A stretch of 64,000 nt of DNA, from contig NZ_FOCT01000003.1 of assembly GCF_900110185.1 (NCBI RefSeq), positions 124,001 to 188,000 of the forward strand, in the 5' to 3' direction. Source of the stretch: Nitrosospira multiformis (GTDB lineage: Bacteria; Pseudomonadota; Gammaproteobacteria; Burkholderiales; Nitrosomonadaceae). The notes beneath the pieces were generated by a model. It was not told where the DNA came from. It ran no database searches and worked only from the letters and a program-made list of their open reading frames with translations. The position numbers were made by a program, and so were the translations under genes. The first letter of the stretch is position 1. Every line of letters begins with the position of its first letter. Positions 5,887-38,632 of this stretch are shown piece by piece.

Positions 5887-7779
5887 TCAACAGGAGAGGC
5901 GCACCTCTGCCAGCATCCATATGCCCAGTATCTTTCCGGTTTGCGGATTTTCGACGATACGGTCCAATGGAGGGGGAAGGTTGAAAGGCGCCAGCGTCAG
6001 GTTCACGGAACGCCATCCGCCCGTGGCGATGTCTGTGTTGATGCTGGTCGTTTCATGGCTGGTTGCCAACAGGTATTTTGCCCTGGAGCGGCGGATATTG
6101 GAAAGCGCCCGTAGAATATCCGCCAGTGACAGGTGGATCAGGACATCGCGGCAGAGCACTGCGTCACCGCGCGGCAGGTCATCTTCTACCAGATCGGCAA
6201 CCTCGAATCTCCAGTTGGGATGGGGAAAGCGCCGCCGGTTTTCCTCTATCAGCGCAGGAACGATATCGACACCGATGTATGCATCGAGATCGATTGCAGT
6301 ATGCTGCCGCCAGTTGCAATCCCCGCAGGGTGCATCCACCAGTGTGCGAACGCCGAGGCGTGTCAGCAGAGGGGGAAGTTCGCGCCGCAGTATTCCGGTT
6401 CGTTCCAGCATGGAGCCGGGCCCCGAACGGGATTCAGGACTCTGCCAGGCGTTGCGGGCATAGATTTGCTCGAATACGCTCACACGATCGCCCGGATGGC
6501 TGTTTTCCCCAGTCTTGCTCTCGTCCTGGTCATTTCGATTCTCCCGGTGTCGATTTTCTCGACGTGCCCGAAGGATGGCAATGGGGCCATTCCATAATCT
6601 ATACTTGAGCCGATAGAGCGACATGACGAGTGGCCAGAGACGCGAATTGTGGATTTTCGCCAGTTCGAACTCGGCCTGCTCAGCCCGTGTGCGCTCCGCT
6701 GCGGCTTCGGCCACAGCAAGATGTTTCTCCTGCTCCACCTGATGGCGCCTTTTGGTGAAATCGGCGATCTCGCGGAGATATCTGCTTGCCGACTGAAGGA
6801 GGGAGTCGGCGTGGCTTTCCTCCTTCGGCTTCCTATCCTTGGATTCGCAGACGTGCGCTTCGATTGCCTCCTGGTAAACCTGGAGAATCCGCTCGATCGC
6901 CGGATCGATACCCGCTTCTGATCGCATGCGCTGGGTAACCTCACGCGCCCCGGCCGCATCGTATCGGTCGAGTTCCCGTGTGATGGTATCCAGAGTAATG
7001 GGATTACGCAGACTTCGTATACCGAAATTAAGCGCGCGAAAGGTTTCATAGTTGTCCGGCGTGACCATGCCCCCGAGGCCGGCAGTGTCGCAGGCTATTA
7101 CAGCTGTTCCGCTGGCAAGGGCTTCAAGCGCGCAACGTGCTTTCGCAAAGACAATATCATAGCGGCCAAGAATCTGTTCAGGCCGGGCTTCACTGTGCCC
7201 GACAGAAAGGCCGGTGGCATCGAGTTCGATGCCGCGGCCGGCACAGGCTTGGCGCAGGATTCCCAGGCAACCGTCCTCACCGATGTAATTACTGAAAACC
7301 AGGGCTTTGCGCGGTATGGCAGGTAAATCCGTGCGCAGGCCGAATCGCTGCAGATCGACAAAATTGCGTATTACACAAATGCGCCCGGGGGGGATGCCAT
7401 GGAGGCATTGCAGGCGTTCCTGGCAGAGATCGTCCAAAGCAACATAGCGCTGGATCGTGGGGAAGCGTGGTGCCATTTCTTCCCATGGCAGCCAGCCATG
7501 GCAGAAGTAGACAGCAGGCGTATCGGGAAAATGCAACATGGCCGTCATCGCCTCGAGATGATGCTGGCCATGAATAATGTCGGGTGGAACCGTCAGCAGA
7601 TTGAGATCGTCGATGACGGGAATGGTCGACGAACGCAACTCTTCGGCAACTACCCCAAGTCGGGTGCTATAGGCTACAGGATTATGGCCGTATCGCAACA
7701 GTGCCAGGGCCAGGTCGCGGACATACAGTTCCGATCCGGCGCGGGTGTCAAGCGTGTTATTGGTTATGAGTACCCTCAT
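5887..7779 (-). CDS. Bifunctional glycosyltransferase-SAM methyltransferase fusion
   Basis: A 630-residue two-enzyme fusion. Residues about 1-300 resemble GT4-like glycosyltransferases: MRVLITNNTLDTRAGSEL at the N-terminus, HGWLPWEE, then a C-terminal half with FSNYIGEDG, and EALASGTAVIACD carrying the conserved acidic residue. Residues about 320-385 form a charged, probably coiled-coil linker (RRHQVEQEKHLAVAEAAAE). The C-terminal part, about 420-630, is a class I SAM methyltransferase with motif I TLVDAPCGDCNW, then YIGVDIVPALI and DAVLCRDVLIHLS. Its start overlaps the PIG-L-like gene by 4 bp. It may transfer a sugar and then methylate it or the glycan end during O-antigen-like synthesis. 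This is inferred from domains; the acceptor is unknown. Confidence 0.85.
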   Translation of the reverse strand: MRVLITNNTLDTRAGSELYVRDLALALLRYGHNPVAYSTRLGVVAEELRSSTIPVIDDLNLLTVPPDIIHGQHHLEAMTAMLHFPDTPAVYFCHGWLPWEEMAPRFPTIQRYVALDDLCQERLQCLHGIPPGRICVIRNFVDLQRFGLRTDLPAIPRKALVFSNYIGEDGCLGILRQACAGRGIELDATGLSVGHSEARPEQILGRYDIVFAKARCALEALASGTAVIACDTAGLGGMVTPDNYETFRALNFGIRSLRNPITLDTITRELDRYDAAGAREVTQRMRSEAGIDPAIERILQVYQEAIEAHVCESKDRKPKEESHADSLLQSASRYLREIADFTKRRHQVEQEKHLAVAEAAAERTRAEQAEFELAKIHNSRLWPLVMSLYRLKYRLWNGPIAILRARRENRHRENRNDQDESKTGENSHPGDRVSVFEQIYARNAWQSPESRSGPGSMLERTGILRRELPPLLTRLGVRTLVDAPCGDCNWRQHTAIDLDAYIGVDIVPALIEENRRRFPHPNWRFEVADLVEDDLPRGDAVLCRDVLIHLSLADILRALSNIRRSRAKYLLATSHETTSINTDIATGGWRSVNLTLAPFNLPPPLDRIVENPQTGKILGIWMLAEVRLSC

Positions 7780-8696
7780 GGCGCTTTTCTGTCTTTCCCT
7801 GCTCTATCCGTCCCAGCCGATATCTTTGTATTCAGCCGATTCATGATTGGCAGAACATGCTCATGAAACCGGATGACGTCTCGGTAGCGCCCGTCCGCCA
7901 CACGCTGTTCCCCGCGGATTTCATAAAAAGGTTTCTGTTGCCGGAAATTTCGTTCCGGCTCTTTCCCCGGTACGACAGCCGCATACAGGTATTCACGGCC
8001 AAAAGCGTCTTCACCATACGAGTGGAACGCATCCTCCACCTCCTGGTGGAGGATTCCCCCCGCTCGACTGGCATACTCGCGCATGGTTTCCAGCTTGTGC
8101 GCCAACTCACGTTCGTTCAATTCGATAATGCACTGCTCGCTCTCCTGCTGGATGGCAGGATTCGCGGTTTCTGCGCGACATGCAGTTGGCTGCGCAGTGG
8201 GTCGCGGATCCCCCATGAGGGGGATAGTGTAATGCCGGACAAGGTATTCTTTTCCATCCGCAACTCTGGCGATGTGAGTGACGTTGTTGGTAATAACCAC
8301 CGCAGTCCGGACAAGTACCTCGCATAAATCATGTGTCGGGTTGTAGCCCTCAATGCCGTCGCTTACCACCGTGCGAATATCCCGGGCAGCGATAAGTGCA
8401 GCCAACCGCTCGCAGAGGTCATCGAACATATCGTATTCGCCATACAGCATCTTCCAGTAGATTTGCCGGTCGGTGAGTTCACCGCACACGGGGCCGATTT
8501 CGGCCCCCAGCCCCTTCAGGATGTTCAAGGTGGCCGCCAGCCGGGGCTTATCATCGCTTCCCGAACCATCGGTAAGAATGCAAACCAGCGGTTTCGTCTG
8601 CGCGATCCAGCCGTAGAGGCGCAGTTCATGCCCCGGATGGGCGATGACGAGCAAATTGCCTCTCCCGGAAAGATTGTTTCGCCGGGCGTCGCTCAT
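7776..8696 (-). CDS. PIG-L/LmbE-like protein, divergent metal motif
   Basis: A 306-residue protein resembling PIG-L deacetylases, zinc enzymes that remove N-acetyl groups from sugars. The opening strand LLVIAHPGHELRLYGW matches the family position of AHPDDE, but the two acidic residues are replaced (GHE), and the later metal region reads EGYNPTHDLC. CILTDGSGSDDKPRL matches the conserved strand after the first motif. The start overlaps the ABC ATPase stop by 4 bp and the stop overlaps the glycosyltransferase start by 4 bp, so it is firmly part of the operon. It could be a true but divergent deacetylase or a non-catalytic relative. I am fairly sure of the fold and unsure of the activity. Confidence 0.7.
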   Translation of the reverse strand: MSDARRNNLSGRGNLLVIAHPGHELRLYGWIAQTKPLVCILTDGSGSDDKPRLAATLNILKGLGAEIGPVCGELTDRQIYWKMLYGEYDMFDDLCERLAALIAARDIRTVVSDGIEGYNPTHDLCEVLVRTAVVITNNVTHIARVADGKEYLVRHYTIPLMGDPRPTAQPTACRAETANPAIQQESEQCIIELNERELAHKLETMREYASRAGGILHQEVEDAFHSYGEDAFGREYLYAAVVPGKEPERNFRQQKPFYEIRGEQRVADGRYRDVIRFHEHVLPIMNRLNTKISAGTDRAGKDRKAP

Positions 8697-27519: not shown

Positions 27520-27881
27520 GGGGGCGACCTGGCTTCGACGTGGGTTGCAAAGCAGAGCAGGGCATACCGAGGACCAGTTACCTCGTAAATACATCTGGAA
27601 ACCAATAGTCGCAAACGACGAAAACTACGCTTTAGCCGCTTAAATCCGGCTAGACTCCGCACCGGTGGGCCTCAACGCCGGGTCTGGCAACAGGCAGCGG
27701 AGCCATTAACGAGGATCGCGCTCAGTAGGGTTACTTTACAGGGCGTTAAACAATAGGTAACTCGCCTGCCATCAGTCTGCCGGTTGACGGATGCCAGGTT
27801 AAATCAAAAAACATGGCTAAGTATGTAGAACTGCCTGTAGAGGACTTGCGGACGCGGGTTCAATTCCCGCCGCCTCCACCA
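27520..27881 (+). ncRNA. ssrA: Transfer-messenger RNA (tmRNA)
   Basis: One-piece tmRNA that rescues stalled ribosomes. The 5' end GGGGGCGACCTGGCTTCGACG and the 3' end with T-arm GCGGGTTCAATTCCCGC, acceptor strand and encoded CCA (27879-27881) are present. The tag reading frame at 27611-27643 encodes ANDENYALAA and then TAA, a typical betaproteobacterial degradation tag. A TAATAC -10-like box at 27506-27511 lies just upstream. The 3' end is the attachment site of the integrase-bearing island that follows, so the last bases of the gene may be supplied by the island. Confidence 0.96.
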
Positions 27882-27948: not shown

Positions 27949-27985
27949 GTTGTCCAAACAAATCCAAACTCATCTATTGTAATCC

Positions 27986-28044
27986 GACGGTAACTGACGG
28001 TAAACTTGACGGTAATAGAGTTACCGCCAACTGGAGTTACCGTC
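27986..28044. promoter_or_regulatory. Five GACGGTAACT-type boxes in front of the integrase
   Basis: Direct copies begin at 27986, 27996 and 28008 (GACGGTAACT, GACGGTAAAC, GACGGTAATA). Inverted copies lie at 28019-28028 (AGTTACCGCC) and 28035-28044 (AGTTACCGTC, ending at the integrase ATG). The first and last boxes are exact inverted repeats. The array covers the likely promoter and ribosome site, so it may be an operator or a set of recombinase arm sites. The same core recurs at 38504-38525 and in the array at 32043-32475. Confidence 0.75.
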
Positions 28045-29256
28045 ATGGCACTTACCGACACCGCTATTCGCAATACCAAACCTGCTGACAAACCTCTCAA
28101 GCTAACAGATGAGCGCGGGCTTTACCTGCTGCTCAAGCCCAATGGCTCCCGCTGGTGGCGATTTGATTATCGGTATGGCGGCAAACGCAAAACCCTCTCC
28201 ATGGGCGTCTACCCCGACGTGAGCCTAAAGGAAGCTCGCAATCGCCGTGATGAAGCCCGCAAGCTGCTTGCTTCCGATGTCGATCCTGGCGAAAACCGTA
28301 AAGCGGTAAAAGCCGCCAAGCTGGAAAAGGCTGCAAACAGCTTCGAAGTCGTCACCAGGGAGTGGTATAGCAAGTATTCTCCGAGCTGGAATGAAAGCCA
28401 TGGCGAGCGCATCATTCGCCGCTTTGAGCGTGACATATTCCCTTGGATAGGCAGCAAGCCCATTACCGAGATAGCCGCACCTGAACTGCTGACAACAGTG
28501 CGGCGCATCGAAGACAGGGGCGCAGTGGAAACCGCGCATAGGGCATTGGGTAACTGTGGACAAGTGTTTCGCTATGCCATAGCAACCGGACGTGCTACCC
28601 GAGATATTTCCGCTGATTTGAGAGGCGCCCTTCCTCCGGTTAAGGGAGAACATTTTGCCGCTATTACTGAACCTAAGCAGGTAGGAGCGTTGCTGCGGGC
28701 AATCGATGGCTATACAGGTTCTCACGTTGTACGTTGTGCCTTGCGTCTTGCTCCGCTGGTATTCGTGCGTCCTGGCGAGCTACGTAAAGCTGAGTGGAAA
28801 GATATAGACCTGGATGTGGCAGAATGGCGTTATATCGTCACTAAGACCAATACTCCGCACATCGTTCCCCTCTCAACACAAGCAGTGGAAATACTCAAGG
28901 AACTGCAAGCTTTGACGGGCAGAAGTCCCTTTGTTTTCCCTGGTGCACGTACCAATGGCCGCCCCATGAGTGATAACGCGATACTGGCTGCGCTTCGGCG
29001 GATGGGCATAGACAAGGAAGAAATGAGTGGGCATGGCTTCAGAGCTATGGCACGAACCATTCTTGATGAAGTGCTAGGCGTTCGCCCTGACTTCATCGAA
29101 CACCAGTTAGCCCATTCGGTAAGAGACCCCAATGGCCGTGCCTATAACCGTACAGCGCATTTACCCGAACGCCGCAAGATGATGCAGCAATGGGCTGATT
29201 ACCTGGACAAGCTCAAAGCCGGGGCCGAAATCATTCCCCTGCATGGCGTGGCCTAA
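28045..29256 (+). CDS. Tyrosine-recombinase integrase (P4-type, DUF4102 N-terminus)
   Basis: Site-specific recombinase of 403 residues that would integrate and excise the island at ssrA. The N-terminal DUF4102 domain reads MALTDTAIRNTKPADKPLKLTDERGLYLLLKPNGSRWWRF with GKRKTLSMGVYPDVSLKEAR. Catalytic residues of the C-terminal domain: Arg242 in RPGELRKAEW, His330 and Arg333 in HGFRAMA, a further His in HQLAHS, and nucleophile Tyr367 in GRAYNRTAHL. I chose ATG 28045 with TGGAG upstream; the frame is open from 28006 but crosses the repeat boxes. It points away from ssrA, 163 bp from its 3' end. Confidence 0.95.
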   Translation: MALTDTAIRNTKPADKPLKLTDERGLYLLLKPNGSRWWRFDYRYGGKRKTLSMGVYPDVSLKEARNRRDEARKLLASDVDPGENRKAVKAAKLEKAANSFEVVTREWYSKYSPSWNESHGERIIRRFERDIFPWIGSKPITEIAAPELLTTVRRIEDRGAVETAHRALGNCGQVFRYAIATGRATRDISADLRGALPPVKGEHFAAITEPKQVGALLRAIDGYTGSHVVRCALRLAPLVFVRPGELRKAEWKDIDLDVAEWRYIVTKTNTPHIVPLSTQAVEILKELQALTGRSPFVFPGARTNGRPMSDNAILAALRRMGIDKEEMSGHGFRAMARTILDEVLGVRPDFIEHQLAHSVRDPNGRAYNRTAHLPERRKMMQQWADYLDKLKAGAEIIPLHGVA

Positions 29257-29263
29257 GGCAATA

Positions 29264-29857
29264 ATGACTGAAGGCAATGCTTGGCCTTGGGGACTTCGCA
29301 AGCCAAATTGGGATAACTGGAAATCGATTAAACAGGCAAGGCTTTGGCAAGCTATCGCGTTGGCGTGCGATCTTGATCCAGCCAACTTCCAACTATTCGA
29401 TAAGCCTCAACTCGCACGGCTGCTCAAGGAGCCACCCCGGCAATTTGAGGATTTACTTGACATGGCCAAGGCCAGTATTGGCGCTAATAGTGTCTTGAAA
29501 CTGCTTTCACGCAGTGAGGAAGGACTGGAAGAAAGCGAAGTAAAGCTTACAAACTTCGCCACATGGGTTAAAAGCATACAATATCCCATTCCCGCGCAAT
29601 TCCCCTGGCAGTCTGAACCCATCACTCTCAGTAATCTCGATTGGCCCTGGGGTAGGCACGAAACGCATTTGTTGCGAAAGCTTGCTGGTGCCGCTCAGCG
29701 TTTCTGGAGTAACTACGACCCGGCAGACCCGACCACCGCACCTACCAATCAACAAGTCATCGACTGGCTAAAAGGGGAAGGCGTGTCTGAACGTGCCGCC
29801 GAAATCATGGCTACTATCCTTCGCGCTGACGGTCTTCCGACCGGCCCGCGCAAATAA
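29264..29857 (+). CDS. Hypothetical mobile-element protein
   Basis: 197 residues from ATG 29264, which follows AAGG just after the integrase stop. I do not recognise a family. Visible features are two WPWG motifs near residues 6 and 122, a Trp-rich start (WPWGLRKPNWDNWKSIKQARLWQAIALACDLDP), and a Lys-rich region with a helical C-terminus (NQQVIDWLKGEGVSERAAEIMATILRADGLP) that may bind DNA. It lies between an integrase and an AlpA-like regulator, so a role in element maintenance or regulation is likely but unproven. Confidence 0.7.
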   Translation: MTEGNAWPWGLRKPNWDNWKSIKQARLWQAIALACDLDPANFQLFDKPQLARLLKEPPRQFEDLLDMAKASIGANSVLKLLSRSEEGLEESEVKLTNFATWVKSIQYPIPAQFPWQSEPITLSNLDWPWGRHETHLLRKLAGAAQRFWSNYDPADPTTAPTNQQVIDWLKGEGVSERAAEIMATILRADGLPTGPRK

Positions 29858-30002: not shown

Positions 30003-30254
30003 ATGGTTCAAGCAATCCTAAGACTTCCTGCTGTTAAAGCCGAGTCCGGCGCATCCCGTTCAACCATTTATCTTCGCATTCAGCAAGGGCTTTGGCCTAA
30101 GCCTGTAAGACTTGGCCCGCGTTCTGTAGGTGGGCCCGCTGGCGAAGTGGCTGCCATTAATGCTGCCCGCATTGCTGGCAAGAGCGACGATGAAATACGG
30201 GAACTGGTAGTCAAGCTGGAAGCTGCCCGTAAAACAGCGGGCAAGGCGCTGTAA
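30003..30254 (+). CDS. AlpA-family DNA-binding regulator/excisionase
   Basis: Small helix-turn-helix protein of 83 residues. The pattern ILRLPAVKAESGASRSTIYLRIQQGLWPKPVRLGPRSVGGPAGEVAAINAARIAG matches AlpA/MerR-like winged helices that regulate integrase genes or act as excisionases in P4-like elements. The ATG follows AGAGGTACAAAC, a good ribosome site. It sits 10 bp before the DUF927 gene, so they are probably one transcript. The preceding 145-bp gap may hold its promoter. It may bind the GTTAC-type boxes; this is inference only. Confidence 0.85.
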   Translation: MVQAILRLPAVKAESGASRSTIYLRIQQGLWPKPVRLGPRSVGGPAGEVAAINAARIAGKSDDEIRELVVKLEAARKTAGKAL

Positions 30255-30264
30255 GGGGATGGCG

Positions 30265-32028
30265 ATGCAAAATATACGTACACCAATCGCTTCCCTCACG
30301 GCAACCCAAAACTCAACATCTGCCTCTATAACTTCATGCTCATACGGGAGCGGGCGCTTCGAACTTGCAGAAACAGGCGTCTATTTCCACGGTAGAGATA
30401 AAGACGGAAATGAGCAACAACCTCAATGGATTTGTGCACCTTTATATGTAATAGCAAAAACAAGGGATGAGAAAAGCGGCGAATGGGGGCGATTATTGGA
30501 ATGGCAAGATGATGATGGACATATCCATCAATGGGCGATGCCGCTGGAACTACTGGAAAGCGATGGCTCGGATGTAAGGCGTGAGCTTGCCCGCCTTGGC
30601 TTGCACATCTCGCCAAATCAATTGGCACGTGGCTTGTTGAGTGCCTACATCAAGGTATGGCCAGTAGAAGCCCGAGCGCGGTGTGTGGATCGGCTGGGCT
30701 GGCACGGCAATACCTTTGTTACACCCAGTGGTGCAATTGGGGAAGCTGAAGAGCCTGTTGTGTTTCAAAACTCACATGCGATTGAACCGGCTTATGCCGA
30801 ATCAGGCACGGTAGAGGAATGGCAGGAATCAGTAGCAGCGCTGGCGTCGGGCAATACACGCCTTGTGTTCGCATTATCCATTGCTTTTGCAGGCGCTTTA
30901 GCTGAAATAGCCGGGGAAGATTCTGGCGGCTTTCATTTGCGTGGCGCTTCATCGTCCGGTAAATCCACTGCATTAAAGCTTGCCGCTTCAGTATGGGGCA
31001 ATCCTTCAGCTTATGTGCGGCTTTGGCGTGGCACAGTCAATGGCTTGGAAGGATTGGCAACACTGCACAATGACGGCTTGCTGATTCTGGATGAAATTGG
31101 GCAGATCGAACCAAAGGATGCGGGAGAAGCTGCTTATCTTTTAACGAATGGGCAAGGCAAAGTCAGAGCGTCACGCAATGGCTTTGTCCGCTCAAGCCAA
31201 CGCTGGCGGCTGCTGTTCTTAAGCGCGGGTGAAACGTCCCTTTCCGCGATCATGGCACAAGCAGGCAAGCAATCGACTGCGGGGCAAGAAATCAGACTGG
31301 CGGATATAGAAGCTGATGCAGGCTCAGGCATGGGCATATTTGAGACATTGAATGGATATCCCAATGCCGCTTCCCTGGCGATAGCGGTAAAGGAAGCATC
31401 TAGCAAATATCATGGCGGTGTTGGTAAGGAATGGTTGCGCTATCTCGTCGCGAACAGGATTTCCCTCAAAGACTTTATCCCTGAGCAAATCAAGCAATTT
31501 GTAACGGGAGTAATACCGGCAAGGGCGGCAGGGCAAGTTGAGCGGGTAGCGCGTCGCTTTGCATTGGTTGCCGTTGCCGGTGAACTTGCCACTCATTGCC
31601 AATTAACAGGCTGGCGGGAAGGTGAAGCGACTCATGCTGCTCGCACCTGCTTTGCCGCTTGGCTGGAAGCCTTTGGCGGGAGTGGCAACCGCGAAGAACG
31701 AGCAATATTGGCACAGGTACGTGCTTTCTTTGAAACCCATGGTGCAAGCAGGTTTGAAGATATCAGCGCAACAATTGACCAGCGCATTCCAAAAAGGGCG
31801 GGTTTCTACCGGAGTGGAATAAAAGATGGACGGGAATTTCTGGTATTGCCGGAAGCATTCCGTATGGAAGTATGCCAAGGTTTTGACGAAAAAACCGTTA
31901 AGAAGGTCTTGATGGAAGCGGGAGTATTGCTTCCCGGCAATGACGGCAAACCGTCGCAAGTTGTCCGACTTCAAGGATTGGGTTCATCGAGGGTCTACGT
32001 TATTCGATATCGGGATGAGGAAGAGTAA
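30265..32028 (+). CDS. DUF927-domain NTPase (putative replicative helicase of the element)
   Basis: 587 residues. Central P-loop: Walker A GASSSGKST (about 227-235), Walker B LLILDEIGQIEP (about 272-283), then RWRLLFLSAGETSLSA, all typical of DUF927, an ASCE-class NTPase found with primases of integrated elements and plasmids. The N-terminal part (CAPLYVIAKTRD... WAMPLELLESDGSDVRRELARLGLHI) is the usual DUF927 leader. No TOPRIM/primase domain is present, so this is a short form. I prefer ATG 30265 (spacing to AAGGGG) over ATG 30259. The gene is followed by an extraordinary GTTAC/GTAAC array, which suggests that Rep-like binding and origin function lie here. Confidence 0.85.
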   Translation: MQNIRTPIASLTATQNSTSASITSCSYGSGRFELAETGVYFHGRDKDGNEQQPQWICAPLYVIAKTRDEKSGEWGRLLEWQDDDGHIHQWAMPLELLESDGSDVRRELARLGLHISPNQLARGLLSAYIKVWPVEARARCVDRLGWHGNTFVTPSGAIGEAEEPVVFQNSHAIEPAYAESGTVEEWQESVAALASGNTRLVFALSIAFAGALAEIAGEDSGGFHLRGASSSGKSTALKLAASVWGNPSAYVRLWRGTVNGLEGLATLHNDGLLILDEIGQIEPKDAGEAAYLLTNGQGKVRASRNGFVRSSQRWRLLFLSAGETSLSAIMAQAGKQSTAGQEIRLADIEADAGSGMGIFETLNGYPNAASLAIAVKEASSKYHGGVGKEWLRYLVANRISLKDFIPEQIKQFVTGVIPARAAGQVERVARRFALVAVAGELATHCQLTGWREGEATHAARTCFAAWLEAFGGSGNREERAILAQVRAFFETHGASRFEDISATIDQRIPKRAGFYRSGIKDGREFLVLPEAFRMEVCQGFDEKTVKKVLMEAGVLLPGNDGKPSQVVRLQGLGSSRVYVIRYRDEEE

Positions 32029-32042
32029 ACGCAATTGCCGCT

Positions 32043-32475
32043 GTTACAGCGGTAACGCGGTAACAGCCAATAGGAGCGAAATTTTCGACGTAACCCTGAT
32101 GTTACCGCGCCAAACCAGTCGGTAACATGTATTCCGTTTCCGGAAATCTCGTTACAGGAATTCCCGTTACAGAAATCTTTGCTGAATTTATTCCTGTTAC
32201 CGTTACAGGATTTATTGATATGTTCGATTCTCTGTTACGGATACCGTTACCGTAACTGTAACCATTACTGATACTGTTACGGTTTATATCTTCCCTTTGT
32301 TCCTGGTACGGCAAGCGAGTTAAACAAGCGCCCTTCTCAAATTATTCTGACTCAAGCTGAAACCTGTTACCGCCGTTACCCCATATACTCGAACGGGTGA
32401 CGTTTCACGATAACACGGAAAGCTTCATGAATTGGACGTTTCCAGCAGCTTATCCCAATTGTTACCGGTGTTACC
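32043..32475. repeat. Array of about 19 GTTAC/GTAAC motifs, iteron-like; candidate origin
   Basis: By eye I count 13 GTTAC (32043, 32101, 32151, 32166, 32196, 32202, 32234, 32246, 32276, 32366, 32375, 32461, 32470) and 6 GTAAC (32052, 32060, 32090, 32122, 32252, 32258) in about 430 bp. Fewer than one would be expected by chance. Many extend to GTTACCG or CGGTAAC. Spacing is irregular and the two orientations are mixed, unlike a CRISPR. The 565-bp gap holds no convincing gene. It lies between the DUF927 NTPase and the mod promoter, so it could be a replication origin, a partition site or an operator field. Confidence 0.8.
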
Positions 32476-32593
32476 GCTGGTTTTATTAAAATACGCTCGC
32501 CGGATGACCGGCACAATACGCACCTTAAATACGCAAACTATAATCGCCCGTCATGTTTAATGAAACAAGGCAACGGGAAAATGAGAATATCTA

Positions 32594-34117
32594 ATGCCAC
32601 TTCTTCATTGGCTAACCCGAGACGCTGATTTAAAGCTATCGAGCAAAGCCCCTTATCGGTTGCTGGAGCACGTCCCAGAATTATCGTTTGGTGATTCTGA
32701 TTCTGAAAACATGCTCATTCAGGGCGACAACTTAGACGCGCTGAAGTCGCTGCTGCCGTCCTACTCGGGCTGTGTGAAGTGCATCTATATTGACCCGCCT
32801 TATAACACGCAGAGCGCCTTCGAGCACTATGATGACAACCTTGAACATGCCAAATGGCTTTCAATGATGTATCCGCGCCTGGAGTTGCTACGGGACTTAT
32901 TGCATGAAAATGGCAGCATATGGGTTTCTATCGATGATAACGAGGGACACTACCTTAAGATAGTGATGGATGAGGTTTTTGGGAGGAATAATTTTGTAGC
33001 AAACGTGGTTTGGCAAAAGAAAGTGTCTCCGGCGAATGATGCTCTCTGGTTAAGCGGAGATCATGAACATCTATTGCTGTATGCAAAACGAAAGACCAAA
33101 TGGAAACCTAATCGATTGGAGCGAGATGAAGCGCAAAAGTCTTATTATAAGAATCCAGACAATGATCCTAGAGGTTCTTGGAACTCAGCGGCTTATACCT
33201 GCGCAAAAACAATTGATGAGCGTCCTAATCTCTATTACCCGATAACAAATCCGAATACCGGGGAAGAAATATGGCCGAGAAAGACACGTGTCTGGGCATT
33301 CTCACGTGATAAGCATGAAGAGCATGTGGTCAACAAGCTGATCTATTGGGGTAAAGATGGTAAGGCATTGATGCCCAGATTTAAGAAATTTCTCGAAGGT
33401 AGTCGAAATGTCGTACCGAGAAGTATTTGGTTTTATAACGATGCGGGTCATACCCAGCAAGCAATGCTTGAGAGTCTTAATTTGTTTTCCGAAGATAAGT
33501 TTGGTACTCCAAAGCCTGAGCGACTGCAAAAAAAAATCATGATGATCTCGACGAAACCTGGCGACCTTATTCTTGATTCATTCCTTGGTTCTGGCACAAC
33601 CGCCGCCGTTGCACAGAAAATGGGCCGCCGCTATATCGGTATTGAGATTGGCAAGCACGCTGAAACCCATTGCGCGCCTCGCCTAAAAAAAGTTATTGAA
33701 GGTGAACAAGGTGGCATTTCAGAAGCTGTTGATTGGAAAGGGGGAGGGGGCTTCCGCTTCTATCGCCTTGGTGCTCCCGTGTTTGATGCTGATGGTCGTA
33801 TCAATCCCGATATTAGCTTCGCTCATTTGGCGGCTCATGTGTGGTTTAGCGAAACCCGAACGCCCTTGACCACACCGCCGGGTTCGCCATTCTTAGGTAT
33901 TCATAATGGAACCGCTTATTACCTGCTGTTTAACGGAATATTGGGCGATAGGCGTCCCGATGGGGGAAACGTGCTGACATCCAAAGTGCTTGCTGCATTG
34001 CCACCATTTGACGGCCCTAAGGTGATTTATGGCGAATCTTCCCGCTTTGGTTCCGAACGCTTGCAACTGGAGCGGATTACCTTCAAGCAAACTCCCTACG
34101 ACATCAAGGCAAGGTAA
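32594..34117 (+). CDS. Type III restriction-modification system, DNA methyltransferase (Mod)
   Basis: N6-adenine methyltransferase of 507 residues, the specificity and modification subunit. The catalytic motif IYIDPPYNT (DPPY at about 67-70) precedes the SAM motif DSFLGSGTTAAVAQKMGRRYIGIEIG (about 328-353), the order of beta-class enzymes. The region between them (about 140-300) would contain the target-recognition domain, and the last 150 residues are an additional Mod domain. It is followed by the res gene after 2 bp, so the genes are one operon. Its promoter must lie in or after the GTTAC array. The recognition sequence cannot be read. Confidence 0.93.
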   Translation: MPLLHWLTRDADLKLSSKAPYRLLEHVPELSFGDSDSENMLIQGDNLDALKSLLPSYSGCVKCIYIDPPYNTQSAFEHYDDNLEHAKWLSMMYPRLELLRDLLHENGSIWVSIDDNEGHYLKIVMDEVFGRNNFVANVVWQKKVSPANDALWLSGDHEHLLLYAKRKTKWKPNRLERDEAQKSYYKNPDNDPRGSWNSAAYTCAKTIDERPNLYYPITNPNTGEEIWPRKTRVWAFSRDKHEEHVVNKLIYWGKDGKALMPRFKKFLEGSRNVVPRSIWFYNDAGHTQQAMLESLNLFSEDKFGTPKPERLQKKIMMISTKPGDLILDSFLGSGTTAAVAQKMGRRYIGIEIGKHAETHCAPRLKKVIEGEQGGISEAVDWKGGGGFRFYRLGAPVFDADGRINPDISFAHLAAHVWFSETRTPLTTPPGSPFLGIHNGTAYYLLFNGILGDRRPDGGNVLTSKVLAALPPFDGPKVIYGESSRFGSERLQLERITFKQTPYDIKAR

Positions 34118-34119
34118 AC

Positions 34120-36729
34120 GTGTTCCAGCTCAAAACATATCAATCCAGAACCCTTAACGTGCTTAAAACATTTCTTGATAGCGCTCGCGTTACAGGCGTG
34201 GAAACGGCGTTCGCCAAACATGCTATGTCACTTGATGGCCGCATTCCTCGATACCGTAAAATCCCCGGCCTTCAAGAAGTGCCTTACATTTGTTTGCGCT
34301 TGCCAACAGGCGGGGGAAAAACCCTGCTAGCAGCTTATAGCATCAGCATTGCTGCCCGCGCTTACCTTGAGGAAGATAATCCCATCGTGTTATGGCTGGT
34401 GCCCTCAAACACCATTCGCATACAAACGCTGGAAACTTTGAGAAATTCCACTCACCTGTATCGGCAAGTAATCGATGAGGCTTTCGAGGGAAAGGTGTCA
34501 GTTTTCGACATTACCGAACTTGAGCTTATACGCCCTAAGGATTTGCAAGAACGGGTTTGTGTAGTGGTGGCCACGTTGCAAACCCTGCGCGTAGACAGCA
34601 CAGATGGACGGGACGTTTACGCGCACAAGGAAGCGCTGGAATCTCATTTTGCGAAGGTGAGCAAAGACTATCCTGGGCTTGAAAGGCTGAATGGCGGCGA
34701 GCAAATCAAGTTTTCTTTTGCCAATCTGCTGAATCTGCATCGGCCCCTGGTGATTATGGATGAGGCTCATAATGCGCGAACCAAGCTGACATTTGAGGTA
34801 TTAAGTCGAGTTGCGCCCGCGTGCATTATCGAGTTGACCGCGACCCCTGACACAGACAAGAAGACGGGAAGCAATGTGTTGCATCGTGTGTCCGCTTCCG
34901 AATTGAAAGCGGAAGACATGATCAAGCTGCCCATAGTGTTAACTGAACATAACAACTGGCAAGAGGCCGTGCATGCGGCTCTTGAAACACGCGCGAGGCT
35001 GGCAGCAGCGGCGGCAAAGTTCGATGGAGCGATTCGACCGATATTGCTGCTTCAAGCAGAGAACAAGGACAAGGAAGTCAACGTTGAGGTTTTAAAGGTG
35101 CACCTCGTCGAAAATGAAGGTATCGACGAAAACAGAATTGCCATTGCCACTGGAGCACAAAGGGGACTAGACGGAATTGATCTGTTTGACCCGGCTTGCA
35201 TCATTGAAATCATCATTACCGTCCAAGCGTTGAAGGAAGGATGGGACTGTTCTTTTGCCTACGTTTTTTGCTCGGTGGCGAATATCCGTTCTTCCAAGGA
35301 TGTAGAGCAATTACTTGGACGGGTATTACGAATGCCTTACGCTCGCCGCCGTGCGGTTGAAGAATTGAATCGGGCTTATGCACACGTTTCCAGCCCATCC
35401 TTTGCTCAAGCAGCCAATGATTTGAAAGATGCGTTGGTTTCCATGGGGTTCGAGCGAGAGGAAGTAGAAACGGTAATCCAGCCACAGCAGGATTTGCTGG
35501 AAGGTTCGACTCCCAGCCTTCCGCTTGTTATGCCACTGCTTACGCTCCTGACGTCTGAAAAGCCCGACCTGAGTAACCTCTCCGAAGCCGAGCAATCTCA
35601 CGTGGAAGTAATAGAAGCTTCCTCTGGCAATATTGAAATTCATGTTAAGGGTGAATTAAGCCAAGATCTTGCGGCAAAGCTGGTAAACGCCTTACCCAAA
35701 GAGGAGCGCGCAGAAGCACAGAAAACCATTGACACTCATCGGCATTACCAAAAATTCAAGCCCTCCCCATCTGAGCAAAAGCGAGCTTTCAAAGTGCCGC
35801 GCCTCTGTGTTTGGGTGCAAGGTGAACTGGAGATTGCCGAGCGGGAATTATTTTTGGATGAAAACGGTTGGAACCTTCTGGATTTTCCCCCTACGCTGCC
35901 TGAGTTCCGTTACGACGATTCTGCTAAACGCTTTATTTTCGATGTGGATGGCGACAAAGTTGTTTGGAATATGCTTGACCCGCAAGCAAAAATGACATTC
36001 GGGGAAGGTTTCTTAGGACTCACCCTAAATGATTTGGTGCGTTGGCTGGATAAACAGGTCAGGCAGCCAGATATAAGCCAGATAACAATGCTGGAGTTCT
36101 TGCGGCGTGTAGTGACTTCACTATGTGATAAACAAGGTTTTGACTTGACCACATTACTCCGTGCGAAATTTATTCTTGCAAAGGTTCTAATCGAAAAAAT
36201 CAAACGGCATCGGGAAGAAGCATACGCCAAGGGTTATCAAGAAACACTGTTTGGCCCGACTGCTGCCGTGGAGACCTCTTTCACTTACACTTTCTCGTTT
36301 GATCCTGTCAGCTATCCTGCAAACTGGCTTTACTCCGGCAGCTACCGTTTCCAGAAACATTACTACGCGCTTCCTGGTGAGCTTGAGGGCAAAGGCGAAG
36401 AGTTTGAATGTGCTTTTGCGCTAGATTCGATTAAACATGTCAAATATTGGGTACGGAACCTATCCGGCCAGCCTAGGGCTGCCTTCTGGCTACCAACTTC
36501 ATCTGATCGTTTTTACCCTGATTTTGTAGCGCTACTAGAAGATAATCGCTTGCTCGTTGTTGAATATAAAGGTGCAGCCTATGCAAGCAATGACGACAGC
36601 AAGGAAAAACGGCAGATGGGTGAACTATGGGAGAAGAAAAGCAACGGCAAAGGCCTGTTCCTAATGGCTGAGAAAAAAGACGAAATGGGGCGCGGTGTGT
36701 ATGACCAACTTTCTGCCAAGATAAGGTGA
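34120..36729 (+). CDS. Type III restriction enzyme, Res subunit
   Basis: 869-residue helicase-nuclease starting at GTG 34120. Superfamily 2 motifs: Walker A LPTGGGKTLLAA (about 60-71), DEAH box LVIMDEAHNARTKL (about 210-223), motif III IELTATPDTD, and the C-terminal helicase motif EQLLGRVLRMPYARRR. The C-terminal PD-(D/E)xK nuclease is visible as RFYPDFVALLEDNRLLVVEYKG (about 796-817). It uses ATP to translocate or switch state between two inversely oriented unmethylated sites and then cuts DNA. It appears full length and intact, so the system is probably active. A DUF262 gene follows after 94 bp. Confidence 0.94.
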   Translation: MFQLKTYQSRTLNVLKTFLDSARVTGVETAFAKHAMSLDGRIPRYRKIPGLQEVPYICLRLPTGGGKTLLAAYSISIAARAYLEEDNPIVLWLVPSNTIRIQTLETLRNSTHLYRQVIDEAFEGKVSVFDITELELIRPKDLQERVCVVVATLQTLRVDSTDGRDVYAHKEALESHFAKVSKDYPGLERLNGGEQIKFSFANLLNLHRPLVIMDEAHNARTKLTFEVLSRVAPACIIELTATPDTDKKTGSNVLHRVSASELKAEDMIKLPIVLTEHNNWQEAVHAALETRARLAAAAAKFDGAIRPILLLQAENKDKEVNVEVLKVHLVENEGIDENRIAIATGAQRGLDGIDLFDPACIIEIIITVQALKEGWDCSFAYVFCSVANIRSSKDVEQLLGRVLRMPYARRRAVEELNRAYAHVSSPSFAQAANDLKDALVSMGFEREEVETVIQPQQDLLEGSTPSLPLVMPLLTLLTSEKPDLSNLSEAEQSHVEVIEASSGNIEIHVKGELSQDLAAKLVNALPKEERAEAQKTIDTHRHYQKFKPSPSEQKRAFKVPRLCVWVQGELEIAERELFLDENGWNLLDFPPTLPEFRYDDSAKRFIFDVDGDKVVWNMLDPQAKMTFGEGFLGLTLNDLVRWLDKQVRQPDISQITMLEFLRRVVTSLCDKQGFDLTTLLRAKFILAKVLIEKIKRHREEAYAKGYQETLFGPTAAVETSFTYTFSFDPVSYPANWLYSGSYRFQKHYYALPGELEGKGEEFECAFALDSIKHVKYWVRNLSGQPRAAFWLPTSSDRFYPDFVALLEDNRLLVVEYKGAAYASNDDSKEKRQMGELWEKKSNGKGLFLMAEKKDEMGRGVYDQLSAKIR

Positions 36730-36823
36730 TTTTTAGTCTCAGAAATTATCAGACAGCGTATTTGCAGCCGCTTGTGTTACATCATTTGGTTTAAGCATCA
36801 AATAAACGGAATTATCATCAACT

Positions 36824-37909
36824 ATGGCTCAGGGAATAGAACAATCCGAACTTAGTTATTCTGAAGAATATGAATATCGTGAGCAGCCCCCGCCTGATAT
36901 TGTTGTTTTCAATGAGCTACGATCTTGCGCCGACCTCTATCGCTTATATGAAAAAAAGCAGTTAGATGTTGACCCGTACTTTCAGCGAGGTGTTGTTTGG
37001 GACGGACCAGATCAAACTCGCTTTATTGACTCGTTGATAAAGCAATTGCCAATTCCCAGCATGTGTTTCGGCTTTGACTACAAGAAAAGCAAGTGGATGG
37101 TAATTGATGGACTCCAGCGCATGTCATCTATCATTCGCTTTTTTGATAAAACTAAAAATTGGAAGTTTTCAAAGCTTAAAGACATTGACCCCAGGCTTGC
37201 CGGTGCTGACGTACGGCTTTTTCGTGATGACACCTCGGAGTTACATGTTTATTACGAGCGTGTCGAAAATCTTACCCTGCCGATTACCGTATTGAGATGC
37301 GATTTTAGCGAATTACGTCATTTGGATTACCTGTTTAAAATATTTCACAGGTTAAATGCTGGAGGGATGAGGTTAAACAATCAGGAAATACGAAATTGTA
37401 TCTACTCGGGTCCATTCAATATATTGCTAATCGAACTCGACCGGTCAGCAGAGTGGCAAACGTTTTTGTCGATTGTGCACGGTAAGAAAGAAAGATTCCG
37501 TTCTGTTGAGCTTGTGTTGCGCTTCTTTGCATTTTATGAAGATCGGGAATCATATAAAGGGAATCTTCCGCGATTCTTGAACGATTTTATGGCTACTAGA
37601 CGGTGGACTAGCGACACGTTACTTTTAGAAATGCGTTTAAAATTTAAAAAAACTTTAGATGTGATTGTTAATAAGCTAATTGTTCTCATTGATGGGAAGA
37701 AGTTCGGTTTTTCCCAGGCGGAGGCGCTGCTGGTTGCAATTGCTAGCAATATCAGCTCGGTCAGTAACTTCACTAGCGAGGAGCTTCAACAGCGCTATCA
37801 AAAGTTTTTGAACATTCCTTTACTTTCCACTACTGCATTAAGCGCCGATATTTCACGTACGGATAGCGTAAAGCAACGCATTAAGCAAGCAATCGAAAGC
37901 TTCTCCTAG
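36824..37909 (+). CDS. DUF262 (ParB/GmrS-N-like) domain protein
   Basis: 361 residues. The N-terminal half matches DUF262: LYRLYEKKQLDVDPYFQRGVVWDGPDQTRFIDSLIKQLPIP, then the nucleotide-site motif VIDGLQRMSSI (DGQQR-like) and KIFHRLNAGGMRLNNQEIRNCIY. DUF262 occurs in the type IV enzyme GmrSD and other phage-defence proteins, where it hydrolyses NTP and controls a nuclease. Here the C-terminal half lacks the GmrD-type HNH nuclease; it is helical and unrecognised. The next gene begins 6 bp after the stop and encodes a HEPN-like protein. The base composition is AT-richer than mod-res, suggesting separate acquisition. I infer a defence or regulatory function. Confidence 0.87.
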   Translation: MAQGIEQSELSYSEEYEYREQPPPDIVVFNELRSCADLYRLYEKKQLDVDPYFQRGVVWDGPDQTRFIDSLIKQLPIPSMCFGFDYKKSKWMVIDGLQRMSSIIRFFDKTKNWKFSKLKDIDPRLAGADVRLFRDDTSELHVYYERVENLTLPITVLRCDFSELRHLDYLFKIFHRLNAGGMRLNNQEIRNCIYSGPFNILLIELDRSAEWQTFLSIVHGKKERFRSVELVLRFFAFYEDRESYKGNLPRFLNDFMATRRWTSDTLLLEMRLKFKKTLDVIVNKLIVLIDGKKFGFSQAEALLVAIASNISSVSNFTSEELQQRYQKFLNIPLLSTTALSADISRTDSVKQRIKQAIESFS

Positions 37910-37915
37910 AGACTG

Positions 37916-38428
37916 ATGTTCAGCAATTCCGACCTGTTAGTTTCGCTCGCGGAGCTTGACCGTAAGTACGAAGAAAAAAGAGACCCTCGATACGCGAAAT
38001 ACGCTCTGCTGGAGCTGTGTGGATGGATTGAGGAGGCACAAGATCACGTTATGCGAGCGTGTGCTAGCAAACTAACACTTGATTCTTTTAAAAAATATGT
38101 CGAAGAGGAAATCAAAAGAAATAGTGGCTTTGACATAAACAGAAATTTTTATCCGTTGCTTTCACTCATTATTGGGATGCGGCATTTCGAGCAAATTCTG
38201 GTTAAACTTAGAAGTTCGGGAATGTACTTTCTTCCGTTTGAATCAGCCGTCAAGTCATTGAAACCTCACCGTCATACCCACGCACATACCCATTATGTTG
38301 AGAACAACAGCGAGAAAATGCTGTACATCAGTACAGCATCTCCAAGTGTTATAACACAGCAAGCAAGACAAATATTTTTCGGCCTTGAAGAGCTTGAAGC
38401 GGAGTTAAAGATTGTTGACTTTCTATAA
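37916..38428 (+). CDS. HEPN-like protein paired with the DUF262 gene
   Basis: 170 residues, mostly helical, no signal peptide. Helices such as YALLELCGWIEEAQDHVMRACA and FYPLLSLIIGMRHFEQILVKLRS precede a His-rich segment PHRHTHAHTHYV (Arg119, His124). This resembles the RNxxAHT-type active site of HEPN ribonucleases of the RiboL-PSP kind. The spacing of 6 bp after the DUF262 stop indicates co-translation. If the assignment holds, the pair would be a nucleotide-sensing switch plus an RNase effector. I am moderately sure of the HEPN call; it could be only an all-helical partner. Confidence 0.68.
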   Translation: MFSNSDLLVSLAELDRKYEEKRDPRYAKYALLELCGWIEEAQDHVMRACASKLTLDSFKKYVEEEIKRNSGFDINRNFYPLLSLIIGMRHFEQILVKLRSSGMYFLPFESAVKSLKPHRHTHAHTHYVENNSEKMLYISTASPSVITQQARQIFFGLEELEAELKIVDFL

Positions 38429-38503
38429 ATAACGGGCGGTGGGTAAGGGGCGCGAAGAATAACCCGCATTTATTACGAATTGCTTCGGTAATGCCGAGAG
38501 CGT

Positions 38504-38525
38504 GACGGTAACTCTGACGGTAACA
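38504..38525 (+). repeat. Two GACGGTAAC boxes matching the integrase-upstream boxes
   Basis: GACGGTAACT at 38504-38513 and GACGGTAACA at 38516-38525. The 12-bp pitch equals that between two of the boxes at 27996 and 28008. The boxes thus occur at both ends of a 10.6-kb stretch. Confidence 0.75.
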
Positions 38526-38632
38526 ATGCTTTCTCGAACTGGAATAATCGTGTATTCATAGGCGTTATGAAGATTATTCAATTGACGCCGCCTTAAGCCG
38601 CTGATTCTAAGCGGCTTAATCGTTTCTACACA

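Follow-up and report, generated by a model that had tools for sequence, protein, structure and literature searches.

The closest described systems to the locus reported here are integrative elements in which an iteron origin lies behind the gene of its initiator. For SaPIs, the available text of the source describes a Rep protein that uses its C-terminal domain to read an iteron origin directly downstream of its own gene; it also states that Cch contains DUF927 and is related to SaPIbov1 Rep, and it maps a putative origin for Cch2, not for Cch (PMC7581432). Gram-negative PICIs (EcCICFT073 and others) are integrative and carry alpA and rep followed by an iteron origin, as far as the accessible parts of the two reports describe them (PMC6092414, PMC10111431), and a cloned rep-ori segment of this type drives replication in E. 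coli (PMC6092414, available text). In MGIVchHai6, the DUF927 gene is dispensable for excision, mobilization and integration, and the available portion of the source calls the role of DUF927 elusive (PMC7449626). The P4 record places type I iterons, TGTTCACC (that is, GGTGAACA), directly downstream of the alpha gene in crr. In a literature search that covered few of the subscription papers, we found no replication experiment on a DUF927 element from Pseudomonadota and no description of arrays behind Pseudomonadota DUF927 genes; iterons are named for Cch2.

The 64-kb stretch of Nitrosospira DNA analysed here (the window) includes an island of approximately 10.7 kb inserted in the tmRNA gene. Its components follow the order integrase, 204-aa protein, AlpA, DUF927 protein, iteron array, mod, res and PD-T4-2 subunits A and B (Table 1), so that the int, alpA, rep, ori order of Gram-negative PICIs is found with the array in the place of ori. 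The array is, with high probability, the replication origin of the island, and the adjacent DUF927 protein its self-loading initiator helicase. This is very probably an island of the SaPI/PICI type ('initiator helicase plus downstream iterons') with a DUF927 initiator, no matched primase domain and a defence cargo. The original prediction, made from the letters of the window, knew of no described element with this array; the literature searched has provided none for this sequence, although SaPIs, Gram-negative PICIs and P4 crr have the general arrangement.

SaPIbov1 resembles the window island in being integrative, in its initiator fold (PDB 8tch, Z 27.9) and in the position of SaPI iterons directly downstream of rep (PMC7581432, available text). 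It differs in host and in cargo, and the window island has no recognised packaging or interference gene. SCCmec Cch, which also contains DUF927, is the best structural match to the window protein. SCC uses serine recombinases, whereas the window island encodes a tyrosine integrase. Compared with the Gram-negative PICIs, the island differs in its defence cargo, in having no recognised packaging or capsid gene and in the lack of a matched primase domain in its Rep. In the PICI layout two sets of iterons flank an AT-rich region; in the array GC dips to 0.32, with iterons also inside the dip. MGIVchHai6 and MGIVflInd1, as described in the available text, are likewise integrative, with HTH/Xis-type genes beside the DUF927 gene (PMC7449626, PMC4958241).

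P4 shares with the window short, mixed-orientation iterons 3' of the initiator gene, and GGTGAACA is close in form to the GG-n1-4-ACA pattern described below. P4 alpha, however, is a Toprim/D5_N/Pox_D5 protein, and none of these domains was matched in the DUF927 protein. P4 also has a second array at ori1, whereas none was found in the 64-kb window (exact GTTAC; maximum of 5 elsewhere). The P4 alpha family was considered for the DUF927 protein and rejected, as profile comparison found only the P-loop, and not significantly. Since the two proteins are not demonstrably related, the resemblance of their iterons is a likeness in form.

The island and its iteron array

Throughout, G000 denotes the genome of the window (the array is on contig C44), other G numbers denote the genomes compared and L numbers denote loci. 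The left and right attachment repeats are equal at 14 of 16 positions. Searches for the right site by 11-mers and short-word blastn gave nothing convincing, and the site was placed by comparison with G404. In G404 (L096) the first island is followed at its right end by a tandem insertion, with a copy of the att-flanking sequence and approximately 1 kb of additional DNA between this copy and the chromosomal flank. The groups of short sites at the two ends look like integrase arm sites, and those resembling TGACGGTAACTC at the left end recur in all five genus relatives checked. These arm-type-like sites and the iterons have CGGTAAC in common, by chance or through a common origin.

Table 1. Coordinates of features of the island in the window
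Feature	Coordinates	Strand	Basis or remark
tmRNA gene (ssrA), integration target	27520..27881	+	ARAGORN
Putative left attachment repeat TTCAATTCCCGCCGCC, tmRNA 3' end	27859..27874	+	junctions in G404
Cluster of integrase arm-type-like sites, TGACGGTAACTC with 0-3 mismatches	27985..28060	.	putative function
Tyrosine integrase (Arm-DNA-bind_3, Phage_int_M, Phage_integrase)	28006..29256	+	Pfam
204-aa protein	29243..29857	+	conserved in five genus elements, 78-91%
AlpA-family regulator/excisionase	30003..30254	+	PF05930 E=4.9e-10
DUF927 protein, 589 aa, predicted initiator helicase of Cch/SaPIbov1-Rep type	30259..32028	+	PF06048 E=4.9e-103
C-terminal winged-helix-like domain, residues 478-589, proposed iteron reader	31690..32025	+	model secondary structure, covariation
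Iteron array, 19 GTTAC/GTAAC in mixed orientation, proposed replication origin	32043..32474	.	counts, conservation, DUF927 survey
Lowest-GC part of array, GC 0.32-0.40 in 50-bp windows, candidate melting region	32160..32309	.	
Two direct GTTAC pairs	32366..32474	+	9 bp apart within pair, 95 bp between pairs
Cargo: type III methyltransferase (mod)	32594..34117	+	PADLOC MTase_III E=2.5e-191
Cargo: type III restriction enzyme (res)	34120..36729	+	PADLOC REase_III E=1.5e-198
Cargo: PD-T4-2 subunit A (GmrSD_N/DUF262)	36824..37909	+	E=1.6e-151
Cargo: PD-T4-2 subunit B	37916..38428	+	E=6.8e-77
Right-end arm-type-like sites, two TGACGGTAAC	38503..38526	+	
Putative right attachment repeat TTCAATTGACGCCGCC, island end	38577..38592	+	comparison with G404

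The cargo (32594-38428) corresponds to two defence systems, type III R-M and PD-T4-2 (PADLOC). The 204-aa protein has no match in Pfam, PHROG or PADLOC and could hide a function. Among the eight island proteins scanned, no phage packaging, capsid or interference gene was recognised and no ParA/ParB or relaxase family was matched in Pfam (two of the proteins matched nothing). An oriT was rejected on this result, as was the partition locus that had been offered as one possibility in the original prediction.

The array is separated from the DUF927 stop codon by 14 bp and from mod by 119 bp. Its 432 bp hold 13 motifs on the plus strand and 6 on the minus strand, in agreement with the 19 mixed-orientation motifs in about 430 bp first described. 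GTTACCG accounts for 9 of these and GTTACAG for 5, while 17 of the 19 conform to GTTACNG. In 500 first-order Markov shuffles of the 565 bp from 32029 to 32593, GTTAC/GTAAC occurs 1.9 times on average and at most 8 times. The total across the window is 104, and the densest 450 bp clear of the array, in the tmRNA region, contains 5 (counting exact GTTAC only). Of all 5-mer pairs in the window, GTTAC/GTAAC reaches the highest local count (19, the next being 13). The array is a real, local feature.

At the level of the genome, three same-strand GTTAC with gaps within 30 bp are found at 16 places, 7 of them in the array, compared with 18 places for the backward control of this pattern; the motif is thus concentrated at the array and not over-represented overall. 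The stricter triple GTTACNG is found at 6 places, including 4 in the array, and its backward control at none. Another dense cluster in the genome is on contig C11, within a P2 gpA-like gene. GC is lowest (0.32) at 32180-32229, but the AT-rich region is modest and iterons are also present inside the low-GC stretch. The segment with the two direct pairs aligns with the relatives G403, G411 and G384 (blastn). Simple patterns for the DnaA, IHF and Dam consensus gave no match in 32001-32600.

A DUF927 match (E<=1e-20) is present in 13 of 23 genus genomes. In six of these (G000, G404, G408, G403, G411 and G384) a close DUF927 gene is located at the tmRNA gene; Nitrosospira briensis Nsp8 is the named relative closest at this locus, its DUF927 protein being 84% identical. 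The original prediction had proposed looking for the array in other DUF927 elements, and it is found in all six relatives and remnants with 19-22 motifs: the densest 450 bp holds 20 in G404, 19 in G408, 21 in G403, 21 in G411, 20 in G384 and 22 in G418 (19 in G000). Motif positions are 81-93% identical to the window in the six relatives while spacers are 46-58% identical (83% in the very close G404), in a comparison based on the motif positions of the window, which the aligner may favour. The sequences of the relatives diverge past the last array motif and the cargo differs; the best likeness to the window mod (26-27%) and res (23-30%) is limited to G404 and G408, and the comparison for G384 covers approximately 3.2 kb beyond the DUF927 gene. 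With 19-22 motifs retained in relatives whose spacers and cargo have diverged, the array belongs to the DUF927 gene and not to mod-res.

In G384 (L040, G384:C33) the DUF927 gene is broken, and G418 (L104) keeps a truncated remnant elsewhere than at the tmRNA gene; these two loci still have arrays of 20 and 22 motifs, respectively. Two further tmRNA-linked elements contain GTTAC-rich stretches, with 10 GTTAC per 450 bp at ~5362 of L101 (G402) and 8 at ~8540 of L097 (G405) (coordinates in tmRNA orientation). No close DUF927 gene was found in either, and the stretches are possibly array remnants.

DUF927 genes, their downstream arrays and the encoded protein

In samples of 399 genomes of the order (E<=1e-30) and 398 genomes of the phylum (E<=1e-15), DUF927 genes were identified in 52 and 47 genomes, respectively. 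From 160 loci, 140 with a DUF927 hit were retained and 9 were then dropped (short downstream DNA or short open frame); the 131 usable loci were clustered to 82 representatives (<80% identity). An array was considered strong if the best 7-mer in the first 700 bp downstream of the gene scored at least 15. Such arrays are present behind the gene in 40 of the 82 representatives, compared with 1 of 82 for in-gene DNA of the same size. Further downstream (1.0-1.7 kb) they are found in 3 of 68 (L032, L142 and L004); in L032 the 7-mer is the one from its own downstream region, and those of L142 and L004 may represent shifted arrays. Compared with Markov shuffles, 57 of the 82 downstream regions score higher at p<=0.02 and 25 do not; 42 representatives have no strong array within the 700 bp. 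A further 26 loci from the search of the phylum served as a second set, with strong arrays in 12 (in-gene, 0 of 26) and 16 at p<=0.02; this set is unclustered and its likeness to the first set unchecked.

Even at relatively high protein identity the array may differ: L042 (66% identity) has no clear GTTAC-type array (6 GTTAC; top 7-mer CCTAGGC, score 14.2) and L046 (56%) has no clear GTTAC-type or strong array. Plasmids and phages also carry arrays behind DUF927 genes, for example Legionella fallonii plasmid III (TGGGACA, 9 copies) and Pseudomonas phage phiAH14b (GGGGAAC, 10 copies). Four of five further plasmid loci exceed shuffles: Skermanella pSR-7 (GTGGTAC, 11 copies), Methylobacterium pMNOD05 (GGTGTGA, 6 copies), a Salmonella plasmid (GTGGTAC, 4 copies, score 14.8) and a 16-kb Klebsiella record; a Cereibacter plasmid locus does not (p=0.165). 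The 700 bp behind the DUF927 gene of the Candidatus Nitrosoglobus plasmid pTAO100 (L036) include no strong array. The Klebsiella record (L193) includes int, AlpA, DUF927 and capsid genes, with 11 GAACCAA/TTGGTTC behind DUF927 (7675-8017), and resembles a capsid-forming PICI.

Motif extension by EM was obtained for 61 of the 82 representatives. The extended repeats vary by lineage (for example, GGTGGGACA, GGTGTAACA, GGTGAAACA, GGTGGCACA, CGGGACA, GGGGAACA and CGGTAACA). All 40 strong arrays use both orientations. The form GG-n1-4-ACA, first noticed on these same 40 arrays, is present in the consensus of 30 and absent in 10, compared with 2.6% of shuffled consensuses. In the second set it is found outright in 4 of 12 strong top 7-mers (L164, L169, L175 and L177), with GTGGnAC in 3 more.

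PF06048 is the only Pfam match of the DUF927 protein, and no primase domain was matched in its 589 aa. The full-length model (pLDDT 82.8) is closest to SCCmec Cch (PDB 5dgk; Z 30.4, 482 residues) and then to the SaPIBov1 initiator (Z 27.9, 460 residues), the third match being at Z 13.3; these Z scores come from realignment of Foldseek matches. Matches in sequence to 8tch (E 8e-14, residues 140-333) and 5dgk (E 5.7e-11, residues 225-333) concern the ATPase part and the stretch that precedes it. The protein is thus predicted to have the Cch/SaPIbov1-Rep MCM-like AAA+ helicase fold over its full length. In the C-terminal part of the model the order H-E-E-E-H-H-E-E is winged-helix-like; folded alone, this domain gave a poor model (pLDDT 55.8) and was excluded from the fold search. 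The structure alignment includes 26 sequences and leaves out L156, L158, L160 and L161 (viral contigs with a frame shift between match start and gene end) together with other near-duplicate or short viral loci.

Covariation between repeat and protein was examined with 48 of the 82 loci (score>=13 and p<=0.02). Repeat distance correlates with the distance in residues 506-589 (r=0.24, p=0.001) and less with that in the ATPase domain (r=0.13, p=0.03). After mutual correction, the values are r=0.22 (p=0.0005) for the C-terminal domain and r=-0.08 (p=0.88) for the ATPase domain. The C-terminal covariation persists when close pairs are removed (p=0.002 and 0.0025) and weakens when only the strongest 31 loci are used (r=0.15, p=0.027). 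Among 17 sliding windows of 80 residues, only 510-589 has p<0.05 (r=0.21, uncorrected p=0.007, a value that would not survive correction for 17 windows). The repeat therefore seems to track, weakly, the C-terminal winged-helix-like domain and not the ATPase domain.

GTTACNG repeats in gpA elements

GTTACNG repeats are found outside the DUF927 island as well. Across the 23 genus genomes the triple GTTACNG is found at 87 places (17 for the backward control), which include DUF927 arrays, gpA linkers and others. One of these others, at G403:C1:415618-416236, is a coding-type 36-bp repeat with GTTACGG that is unlike iterons in look. The original prediction treated the same motif density at unrelated loci as a point against itself: the concentration at the array holds genome-wide, but a similar GTTACNG density does occur in other mobile elements of the genus.

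Matches to a P2 gpA-like initiator (E<=1e-20; family PF05840, E=3e-88) are present in 10 of the 23 genomes. In four gpA elements (G000, G411 and two in G408) gpA comes after an integrase and an unknown gene, an order visible in three of them, and each gpA linker contains 7-10 GTTAC motifs; the two G408 elements (contigs C18 and C21) have 13 more at the 3' end of the integrase gene. GTTACNG in the gpA linker can be seen at G000:C11 ~106852-107066 (L195:4853-5066; L224) and also in L221, L222 and L223. Arrays of this kind occur in six genus genomes (G000, G408, G411, G418, G406 and G409), and two of these, G406 and G409, have no DUF927 match at E<=1e-20. Two other genus gpA loci have few motifs or none (two in L210, none in L204). 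Outside the genus, 28 gpA loci include one with 5 motifs (L262) and 27 with 0-2.

In five gpA linkers (three from G408), 47 of 48 Val-Thr codon pairs are GTT/GTA+AC, compared with 20 of 49 in the ORFs of the window; outside their linkers, the same gpA genes have 8 of 11. Because of the difference between 47/48 and 20/49, the DNA motif itself seems to be kept in the linkers, although the small 8/11 control weakens the contrast. The second base after the core is G in 31 of 35 gpA motifs, 24 of 26 integrase-proximal motifs and 17 of 19 array motifs (background, 25 of 85); tandem 6-bp spacing explains part of this enrichment.

Given these gpA elements, the reader of the repeat need not be the DUF927 protein alone. 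It is conceivable, though we consider it rather improbable, that the DUF927 island and the gpA elements (integrase, unknown gene, P2 gpA-like rolling-circle initiator) are two interacting replicons that use one iteron. If so, the gpA elements would carry DUF927-Rep sites within coding sequence, with helicase borrowing, copy-number interference or decoying as the outcome, an effect comparable to that of the Vibrio origin-directed nuclease on satellite iterons. The differences in iteron between lineages of DUF927 elements would, in that case, be an arms race in which the address of the origin is contested. For Odn in ICP1, the available text describes how the iterons of a satellite can be targeted by another genome (PMC8263062).

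The proposed origin and alternative readings of the array

That the array could be the origin of an integrative element, as first suggested, is supported by its fixed place behind DUF927, the conservation of its motifs while spacers and cargo change, the recurrence of such arrays in about half of the loci, the weak covariation with the C-terminal domain and the Cch/SaPIbov1-Rep fold. Points that speak against it are the 42 of 82 representatives without a strong array (L042 and L046 among them), the small size of the covariation, the GTTACNG repeats of the gpA elements, the modest AT-rich region, the lack of DnaA, IHF or Dam matches to the simple patterns and the dispensable DUF927 gene of MGIVchHai6. 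The following mechanism is proposed from the match of the DUF927 model to Cch and SaPIBov1. Int/AlpA would excise the island as a circle before replication. The C-terminal winged-helix-like domain of the DUF927 protein would bind CGGTAACA-type iterons and DUF927 hexamers would assemble on the array, where the helicase would melt the AT-richer middle and then unwind the DNA. Priming would be provided by the host or by another element, given that the protein has no matched primase domain.

If this is correct, sequence alone suffices to locate the origins of many DUF927 elements, the DUF927 gene is explained as an initiator of replication, and the natural pairs of protein and iteron, a few dozen in number, can be used to decode how the C-terminal domain reads its repeat. 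It would also suggest that a defence island (type III R-M plus PD-T4-2) of an ammonia-oxidizing soil bacterium carries its own replicon. For the specialist, the interest lies in the recurrence behind DUF927 genes, the covariation of repeat and domain, and the repeat common to gpA elements.

Binding of the repeats by a host protein (for example, in partition, silencing or replication control) common to several mobile elements of the genus is very unlikely. It would fit the presence of GTTACNG in genus P2-gpA-type elements, both within gpA and beside the integrase gene, and a second genus DUF927 lineage whose AGAGGTAACA/AGGGGTAACA-like repeats (3-4 copies; L285, L118) have GGTAACA in common. It is weakened by different repeats at the DUF927 loci of one genome: GTGGCAC and GTGGGAC in G134, TGAGGAC and GGGGACA in G059, and GTGGGTATG and TAACAAC in G202. 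Where pairs in the same genome have equal repeats (G268, G341), their proteins are similar and belong to one cluster, and repeat similarity follows the DUF927 C-terminal domain.

We give equally little credence to the large operator of the original prediction, that is, an operator/promoter region for mod-res or a region bound by AlpA, in spite of its position directly upstream of mod and just downstream of the alpA-DUF927 pair. The array stays with DUF927 when the cargo changes, close relatives keeping it with other DNA behind, and the truncated remnant in G418 retains it. In addition, the intergenic region before alpA has no GTTAC/GTAAC motif, and such arrays are found again downstream of DUF927 genes elsewhere in the phylum.

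Integrase arm-type sites or a recombination site are scarcely credible as an explanation: despite the CGGTAAC shared with the end sites TGACGGTAACTC, no array position matches these with <=2 mismatches (five do with 3), the arm-like sites form tight groups at the two island ends, and in P4 the arm sites and iterons are different sequences. A reading as non-functional repeat DNA, such as the decayed remains of a coding repeat like that of the gpA linkers (PVTVTG), would account for CCTGTTACCGTTACAGG in both array and linkers and for the 6-bp GWTACN tracts in parts of each, but is extremely improbable given that motifs are conserved above spacers between relatives, with 19-22 per locus, and that distant DUF927 loci have arrays of other sequence at the same place.
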